From Candidatus Saccharimonadota bacterium (GTDB taxonomy: Bacteria > Patescibacteriota > Saccharimonadia > Saccharimonadales > UBA4665): a stretch of 64,000 bases of DNA. A program made the position numbers and the translations under genes. The notes beneath the pieces are model-generated. The model was not told the origin of the DNA. It did no database searches and saw only the letters and a program-made list of their open reading frames with translations. Positions 43,560 to 46,889 of the stretch are shown piece by piece. The stretch covers positions 124,001 to 188,000 of the forward strand of contig JAQBRY010000004.1 in NCBI GenBank assembly GCA_028286245.1. The letters are read 5' to 3'. How positions within the stretch are numbered: the stretch's first letter is position 1; the number at the start of each line of letters is the position of its first letter.

Positions 43560-44111
43560 ATGAAAGTTTTTGAGCGCGAAGTTTCCCGACCCGAGGTATC
43601 ACGAATAATTAAGGGCGCAACAGCAGCTGCAGGTTTAGCCCTCTTTATGACCGGTTGCGGTGCAGGCGGCACCAGCCACGCGACTGCAGAAAGTCCTACG
43701 CCTACCATCGCACCCCGCAGTGTCCTCGACGCCTGCACTCCCTTTACCGTTATTGCCCAAAATCGCTGGGACCCCTTAGGAACAGCTGTCCGCGATCAGC
43801 CTGATGTAAGCCTGCCAAATAAGGGTGGCTTTGCAGGTAACCTGCCTATCAGCGTTGACGGTTACTACGATACCGGCGTGCCATTAGACGCCCACAATCC
43901 CGCTCCCTTTAACAGTGGTATCTGGTTTCATCTAACCCCCGGCGCTGATACAAATAAAGGCCAAGAAGGGTTCGTGAGTTACCGCGGCGTTCGTGACGAA
44001 ACGACCGAACCGGACCCCGATCCCCGTGATAATCCGCCCGGCGATGGCGGTAAGCCAGTGCCGCTTCGCCCGGAGTGCCGTATAGTTGCTCTACCTACCT
44101 CGGCACAATAA
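43560..44111 (+). CDS. predicted lipoprotein
   Basis: A 183-aa protein with a lipoprotein signal: basic N-region, hydrophobic helix (GATAAAGLALFMTG, about 19-32) and lipobox MTGC with C33. The mature part is Thr/Pro-rich, then a loop-rich domain with two cysteines (about 59 and 174), and an Asp/Pro-rich patch (TEPDPDPRDNPPGDGG) near the end. No family was recognised. It is probably exported and lipid-anchored. Confidence 0.75.
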   Translation: MKVFEREVSRPEVSRIIKGATAAAGLALFMTGCGAGGTSHATAESPTPTIAPRSVLDACTPFTVIAQNRWDPLGTAVRDQPDVSLPNKGGFAGNLPISVDGYYDTGVPLDAHNPAPFNSGIWFHLTPGADTNKGQEGFVSYRGVRDETTEPDPDPRDNPPGDGGKPVPLRPECRIVALPTSAQ

Positions 44112-44121
44112 TTAGGTAATA

Positions 44122-46836
44122 CTACTGCGTGTAGAGGTTAGCCTGTGGAATAATGGTGTTTGTAATAGTAGGCGTACTCCAGAATAATTGGACTGTAGCA
44201 GTGCTAGTAGCTTCGTAATATTCCATTTTAATGGAGTAGTACTGGCCGGCGGTCAGTGCAACCTTGGCGGTGTTTGTCGTAACACTGTGCGTAACCCAGT
44301 TATTAATGATTAGCTTGCCGTCGATCCATAGCCGGACACCATCATCGGTCTTTGTTTGGAAAGTATAGGTCTCCGTCTTGGGTGCTCGGATCCGACCTGT
44401 CCAGCGAGCACTAAAGTTGTCTGCCTTAACCGGCGCACCTGGCGTACCGGTACCAAAGCTAAAGTTTATAGTTTTATCAATCCGGCTTAGGGCCAAGGTG
44501 TTAAAGGCGATGCCGTTATAGTATGTAGCCGTCAAGCCGGTTCCCGGTACCGGGTTAACCACCACTGATTTGGTCAAAGTATTATTAGTGGTGCTAGACT
44601 CGTTAAAACGCTTAGCGTAATTAGCCGTAGCCACCACGCTATACGTACCTGCTGCCCCCGATTTCCAGCTTGCTTTTGCGGTGGTACCGGTTGTGGCAGT
44701 AATAACCCGGCTAGCTCCTGCTGCCAAGCTGGTAGTACTGGCATCGGACCAGGTAACTTTTGTGCCGTTAACGGTAAACGATACCCCGATTGCAGTGCCG
44801 GCAGGCGTAGCTGCTTTGCCGGTATTTTTAATAGTCGCAGAAAAAGTGACCTCATTACCAGAGACCACAGTAGCTGGTGTCCAGGTAAGAGCGCTCACCG
44901 TCAGATCAGACAACAGAGCTGGAGCTGGCGTAGGTACAGGTGTTGGAACTGGGGTAGGTGTCACGGGAGTTGTAACCGGTGGCGGCGCTGGAACCGGCGT
45001 AGGATCAGGGACTGGGACAGGTGTCACGACAGGTGGTGTAGGGACGACCGGAACCGGCGTAGGATCGGGAACGGGTGGCGTAGGATCAGGCACGGGAGCT
45101 GGGTCAACAGGTAGCACTACTGGTGGCTCTGACGGTGGTACTGGATCAGTTAGTGGCGGCGTGGGGTCAGGAACTGGCTCTGTGGGGACAGTAACCGGCG
45201 GGTCAACAGGCACAACGGGATCAGTTGGCGGTATTACTGGGTCGGTTGGGGTATCCACCGGCGGATCAACTGGAGGATCAACTGGCGTGTCAACAGGTGC
45301 TACAACCGGGGCCGGTATCTCAACACCGCTGCGACCAGAACTCACAAAGCGATACAGTAAATCTTGGGCCGGCAAATTAGCTTGCACCAGGTAGGGTGAG
45401 GTAACGGTAAACGAACTATTATCCGCCCTTACAACGCTGGCCGATACCTCACCGGGAGCAAGTGGAAATGTTTTGGCAAACTGTCCAGCCGGGGCGTTAT
45501 ACGTCTCGCTATGATCGCCGACCTTAACGGTAATGGTGGCAGGTGCCGTCAAAAAGCTCAGTGCCTCAACAGTGTCACGAGCGGGACTACTGCCGGCGCG
45601 CAGTTTCATAAACTTTGTCTGGGTGCCCGTAGGCATGGCGGCGTAAGGTTGAATCCGATGCGAGAGGTACACAACATCACGCTTAATCTCCGGCTGTACA
45701 CCGGTCTTGTACCAAGATAGATAGTAGGAGTTAATATCCAGTGGACTCCAGCCAATATTTACTGATGGTGCGATCTGCGTATTTTCCGAATAATCGTTCC
45801 AGGTTGGTAGTTGCACCCAGTCGGCACCACCGCTAATGGCGGCATTCCAGGTGGTTCGAAAATTCTCGGTGTTATCAGCCTCATCATAAATTGACTGGTT
45901 AGGCCGGCTATCTTGCAAAGAAACAGGTTGCATCCAAATTTTTCCGTAAGTATTGTGGGCATCATTTATACTGCCGCTAAGCGTCGAATTTGTAGCGACA
46001 CTGCGGTTGCCCCAGTTTGAAAAACCGTAGCTAAATGAGTTATACGCTGCAACATTGGCACTATAGCTTAGAAAACATGGCACAAACGCCACTTTCTGGC
46101 CCGTGCCTTCGAGTGTGGTAATAAACTTTTTCCAAAAAGCGACGCCCTTATCGCCGTTAACGGCCTTTACCTCTGGGTTAAAGGGCGATATCACTAATCG
46201 GCCATCGGCTAGACGGTACAATGAGCTCCCTGTTGGCCCGGTTGCTAATTGAGCTATTGCCTTAGCTAAGGCTACCGGATCAGCTGCCGCACCGGAATCG
46301 GCATCGGGCATGAGCATAATCTTAAAGTTAGGATCCACATCAACTGCCGCTTGCATCATAAGGCCCAGTCGATCCCAGTGCACGCCCTTATTAATACCGA
46401 GCATATCAAACGTAAAGCCATCCAGTCCGGCTGCGGTTGCCCGCTGGACTTCCGTTTGCATATCTTGCAGCTGCCAATCATTACCATCTATGATAGCCCG
46501 CGGCAAAGGGCGATCACGTAAAAAGCCGCCATACTCGGCGTGCAAGTAGGGCTTAGCCGCCTTAGTAGCTGCGTCGGGATTAGGTTCACCCCTGAGGCTT
46601 AGGTAGTTGACGGTGTAATAATCACTGGCACTATCTTTATTATCAAGCGAAATAGGATAGGCCGAAAAATAGTGGGCAAAGACTTTTTTGTTGGCAGCTT
46701 TTAGATCGGTCTGGCTTGGCAGGTCGATGGGGAGCGGACTAGTGCCGTCAGCACTAGTGACTATTGTCGGCAAGAGGGCGGCTAACACTACAAGCGTGAT
46801 GCCTAAAAGAGTTGCATGCAATTTATATATACGCAT
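44122..46836 (-). CDS. secreted GH71-like alpha-1,3-glucanase with CARDB and PA14 domains
   Basis: A protein of about 904 aa starting at ATG 46836 (a TTG 12 nt upstream is possible). It has a signal helix ([20 protein letters not shown]). The GH71-like catalytic domain (about 45-480) begins [12 protein letters not shown] and has the GLDGFTFDM and [14 protein letters not shown] motifs. A Pro-rich PVDP/PDPTP linker spans about 515-635, then a CARDB-like domain (about 640-765) and a PA14 domain (about 770-900). GH71 enzymes cut alpha-1,3-glucan (mutan). Confidence 0.8.
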
Positions 46837-46889
46837 AAGAGTGCTCAACCAGGTTCTTGCCTAAAGTGCAGTAACTTGTTTGAATTTAA

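Follow-up and report, generated by a model that had tools for sequence, protein, structure and literature searches.

The known GH71 alpha-1,3-glucanases closest to the protein reported here are Agn1 of S. pombe (structures 8yfh and 9m6l) and AnGH71C of A. nidulans (9fnf). In AnGH71C, activity depends on an Asp-x-x-Glu dyad, D265/E268, whose substitution cuts activity 200- to 15,000-fold; for AnGH71B and AnGH71C alike, the dyad and the inverting mechanism have an experimental basis, and inversion is further backed by ligand structures (PMC12394665). The same work found that AnGH71B releases mainly glucose and that insoluble alpha-1,3-glucan is hardly attacked by either enzyme (PMC12394665).

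A second group of comparable systems comprises type IV pilins with added domains. As regards how Saccharibacteria recognise and gain access to their hosts, both type IV pili and the C-terminal modules of PilX have been implicated in host binding by TM7x, whose PilX1 and PilX2 bear extra C-terminal domains; when pilX2 is deleted, binding to the host falls to about half (PMC12206443). Modular pilins are described as widespread in the available portion of PMC8179133, with adhesive or peptidase modules. In the literature searched, GH71 was not found paired with Saccharibacteria or Patescibacteria, and nothing pertinent linked Saccharibacteria to fungal wall glucanases.

Here we describe a GH71 protein encoded in the window, the whole 64,000-nucleotide stretch of DNA that was analysed. 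It resembles Agn1 and AnGH71C in its barrel plus beta-sandwich and in its DxxE dyad, but it is bacterial, carries a linker, CARDB and PA14, and comes from an episymbiont-type genome. That genome, a 94% complete MAG of 1.13 Mb, is Saccharibacteria-like, in keeping with the reduced bacterium that an earlier note on this DNA had envisaged.

A secreted GH71 protein with CARDB and PA14 modules

The gene lies on the minus strand, which the earlier note left unstated, at 44122-46836, an open reading frame without internal stop that encodes 904 aa from its ATG; from an upstream TTG start, it would span 44122-46848 on the same strand. All modules below are likewise on the minus strand. The hydrophobic N-terminal segment (about residues 1-28; 46753-46836) ends near VTSA and, on reading the sequence, fits a signal peptide. 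Next come the GH71 catalytic barrel and its C-terminal beta-sandwich (residues 28-520; 45277-46755), and a Pro-rich linker (residues 508-640; 44917-45315; 58 Pro in 133 residues) separates GH71 from a CARDB domain (residues 643-756; 44569-44910; Pfam E=1.8e-12). A PA14 domain follows (residues 766-898; 44143-44541; Pfam E=1.6e-33), and its nearest match is the PA14 dyad of RsgI3 (6qe7, E=1.2e-62). The GH71, CARDB and PA14 matches all exceed curated Pfam cut-offs, and the secretion and module order anticipated by the earlier note hold up on these hits and on sequence reading. No C-terminal anchor was seen in the protein's sequence, so it is probably released or retained via its tail.

Profile search matched residues 121-473 to Pfam GH71 (E=1.4e-29, 103.5 bits against a cut-off of 34). 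A profile built from 55 relatives retrieved Agn1 (5.9e-54) and AnGH71C (1.4e-46), with GH99 far behind at 5e-12. The catalytic dyad, D348 and E351 in the motif WNDYSE (45784-45795), is invariant in the alignment of these 55 relatives, which reaches down to 25% identity. D348 aligns with the catalytic D237 of Agn1, the residue changed to Asn in the D237N structure 9m6l, and the D348/E351 pair aligns with D265/E268 of AnGH71C. The AlphaFold model of residues 28-520 (pLDDT 94.4) found its best PDB matches in Agn1 and AnGH71C, at a target-normalised TM of 0.80-0.81, and GH99 structures scored near 0.68.

Together, these analyses assign the window protein to GH71, an enzyme class that is well supported. 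The GH71-like domain claimed at the outset is confirmed, and neither outcome named there as a refutation came about: the domain scored well above cut-off and ahead of GH99, and the active-site acids are intact in the predicted structure. GH99 identity was rejected because the first residue of the dyad is Asp rather than the Glu of GH99 (ExxE), with profile and fold also favouring GH71. GH87 identity was likewise rejected on dyad, profile and fold, GH87 being a beta-helix (PMC12394665). By homology, the protein is expected to be active on alpha-1,3-glucan; since its GH71 part shares only about 20% identity with the characterised enzymes (about 18-22% overall with Agn1 and AnGH71C), a related alpha-linkage is possible as the target instead.

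Two further GH71 proteins and the pilin fusion

A genome-wide profile search identified three GH71 genes over the cut-off; the two besides the window gene lie elsewhere in the genome, out of sight of the earlier note. One paralog (L005:1109-4612, 1167 aa) has the architecture signal peptide, GH71, three CARDB domains and transmembrane segment; its N-terminal segment is hydrophobic, and the C-terminal membrane segment with its basic tail was recognised by eye. The other (L004:5774-8347, 857 aa) is a fusion in which PilX_N (E=2.4e-8, 34.3 bits against a cut-off of 25.5) precedes a GH71 domain at residues 471-820 (E=4.7e-29), C-terminal to the pilin module. Judged from these architectures, the three proteins would represent three modes of display: secreted, membrane-anchored and grafted onto a minor pilin. 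Orthologs of all three occur in the sister species Ca. Saccharibacteria RYN_414. That genome also encodes a fourth, divergent GH71-like protein (L015:4054-6975) with three CARDB domains, which falls below the GH71 cut-off and reads LDDYQE at the dyad position.

The genomic neighbourhood of the fusion is that of a pilus locus: next to the fusion gene lie the gene for PilD peptidase and three prepilin-like genes, of which one passes the N_methyl cut-off and two fall short of it; the corresponding RYN_414 locus includes a PilC-like T2SSF gene. Over residues 1-385, the fusion shows homology to PilX proteins of relatives: identity is 57% with the RYN_414 protein and 39% with a congeneric PilX of 400 aa, whose sequence stops at the point where GH71 would start. 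In most relatives, PilX is 345-410 aa long and ends before the GH71 position. This homology to shorter PilX proteins suggests that a minor pilin already in place acquired GH71 at its C-terminus. In the model of the pilin base (pLDDT 77), the N-terminus forms a helix of 60 residues, the head is rich in beta structure, and a disordered linker leads to GH71; a fold search of the PDB with this base returned no significant match. Among the GH71 ORFs examined, just two are PilX-GH71 fusions, those of this genome and RYN_414. A position of this PilX within the pilus, and hence pilus display of GH71, appears plausible from these features.

Other PilX proteins of the group also carry additional domains. 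Adjoining the PilX-GH71 gene in RYN_414 is a second PilX-type pilin (L013:6188-9100), whose PilX_N score lies just below cut-off. It bears a VWA domain (E=3e-16) and, C-terminally, another region of beta-helical appearance; this arrangement suggests exchangeable pilus modules. The PilX of another relative (L119:1378-3153; 591-623 aa) is extended at its C-terminus by a domain that matches nothing in Pfam and looks jelly-roll-like by eye.

Distribution, genomic site and origin

GH71 above cut-off is rare in this lineage: among 393 genomes of the class, 4 have it, and among 380 sampled from the phylum, this one alone does. The RYN_414 ortholog of the window gene shares 66% identity over the GH71 part and the same nusA-pepN context. 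In both genomes, the interval between nusA and pepN holds the GH71 gene together with a convergent neighbour, a putative lipoprotein of 183 aa with lipobox MTGC (43560-44111, plus strand). In three relatives, nusA and pepN are adjacent with neither gene between them. The lipoprotein has a weak ortholog (36%) in RYN_414, none was found in these three relatives, and it matches no family at cut-off.

The nearest GH71 sequences outside the lineage are actinobacterial (Nonomuraea, Microbispora, Actinomadura), at 52-58% identity across the whole GH71 domain. In the GH71 tree, the Saccharibacteria copies fall inside a mainly actinobacterial clade (support 90/99); the tree does not separate one entry from more, and a single transfer into Saccharibacteria is neither established nor rejected (AU p=0.43). 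No relative of this GH71 was found in viral contigs. GH71 is also present in several actinobacterial MAGs of the RYN series (L039, L043, L044, L046, L092), a lead to shared habitat or hosts.

Contamination of the bin was considered and rejected: in the sister MAG, too, the gene sits in the nusA-pepN context, and rpoB and ribosomal protein genes are found on the contig. Nor did composition give a signal of recent foreign DNA, GC (51.6%) and GC3 (48%) being like those of neighbouring genes.

Proposed role and comparison with known systems

We propose, with a probability of roughly 55%, that the window protein is a secreted inverting alpha-1,3-glucanase and one of three GH71 proteins with which the cell grips and locally thins a glucan coat. 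D348 as base and E351 as acid would cleave alpha-1,3-linked glucan with inversion, and the CARDB/PA14 tail on its stiff Pro-rich spacer may keep the enzyme on its target. Acting together, the secreted, membrane-anchored and PilX-borne proteins would allow an episymbiont to grip and thin a coat that could be a fungal wall or a glucan matrix around or near the host, so that pili and cell might reach the host membrane. To our knowledge, alpha-1,3-glucan has not been established as a constituent of the hosts described for Saccharibacteria. There is no pointer to streptococcal mutan in particular, the polymer named in the earlier note; the relatives of the protein are mostly environmental Actinomycetota and myxobacteria.

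What we infer becomes less certain at each step, from enzyme class to substrate, pilus display and biological role, the last of which we see as a lineage-specific contact toolkit. A contact role is favoured by the TM7x data on PilX and host binding, by the wide occurrence of modular pilins and by the failure to find uptake and catabolism families. More tentative is the idea that a pilus bearing a working alpha-1,3-glucanase digests its way through the glucan coat, aided by the secreted and cell-anchored copies.

Nutrient acquisition, in which secreted GH71 would free glucose or nigero-oligosaccharides for import and fermentation, is the strongest of the rival explanations and yet improbable. 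It is the usual role of secreted glycoside hydrolases, enzymes of the AnGH71B type yield mainly glucose (PMC12394665), and entry via a PTS or MFS carrier is conceivable. However, GH13, GH31, GH65 and family-1 sugar-binding proteins (SBP_bac_1) had no match in the 94% complete genome, with control genomes positive, and the ABC-importer permease BPD_transp_1, present in all 14 control genomes, was found nowhere in this MAG. Feeding on alpha-glucan oligosaccharides therefore looks unlikely, and the fusion of one GH71 copy to a pilin would be an odd location for a feeding enzyme. Of the nutrient-acquisition or host-attack tool suggested earlier, the nutrient half consequently loses ground, and the case for attack on a host or surface is strengthened by the two paralogs, PilX-GH71 and the membrane-anchored protein.

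Somewhat less probable still is that the GH71 modules, as slow or weak enzymes, serve above all as adhesins that bind glycan and so fasten the cell or pilus to alpha-1,3-glucan. The PilX C-terminal modules of relatives are lectin- or adhesin-like, as in the jelly roll and beta-propeller of TM7x (PMC12206443) and the VWA of RYN_414, and the AnGH71 enzymes are poor on insoluble polymer (PMC12394665). Against this stands the dyad, which a pure adhesin would be free to lose but which the two sister species retain in each of their six GH71 copies above cut-off.

The weakest alternative is that the target is a different alpha-linked glycan of an actinobacterial host envelope. In its favour, the hosts known for Saccharibacteria belong to the Actinobacteria, the closest GH71 relatives are likewise actinobacterial, and identity to characterised enzymes is only about 20%. 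Against it, the dyad starts with the Asp of GH71 rather than the Glu of GH99, and alpha-1,3-glucanases are the best fit to the model, leaving this reading quite improbable.

If the preferred reading, a set of glucanases used in contact, is true, a pilus would display a glycosidase. A PilX module that is a recognisable enzyme leads to a testable glycan target and, through it, to a testable host or habitat. An alpha-1,3-glucanase family from this unexpected source is also relevant to research on antifungals and biofilms.

Comparison with bacterial GH71 proteins underlines the distinct architecture of the window protein. In the Nonomuraea protein that was scanned, CBM96 forms the N-terminal module and GH71 is the last one, unlike in the window protein, and no PilX fusion occurs in any of the actinobacterial GH71 proteins (Nonomuraea, Microbispora, Actinomadura). 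The GH71 of Myxococcales (L072) shares the pairing of PA14 with GH71; however, its PA14 is N-terminal, it lacks CARDB, and its GH71 domain is about 38-40% identical.

Among pilins, the modular type IV pilins PilB and PilC of S. sanguinis (PMC8179133) likewise place a functional module on the C-terminus of a minor pilin. The modules named in the available portion of that source are binding domains or S74/M26 peptidases, whereas the module here is a GH71 glycosidase. PilX1 and PilX2 of TM7x (PMC12206443) are similarly PilX minor pilins with an enlarged C-terminal domain, but bear a beta jelly roll and a beta-propeller in place of the enzyme of PilX-GH71. The window GH71 alone belongs to a family already known; what appears new, as a variation on modular pilins, is the predicted pilin-borne glycosidase together with the apparent three-way deployment of GH71.
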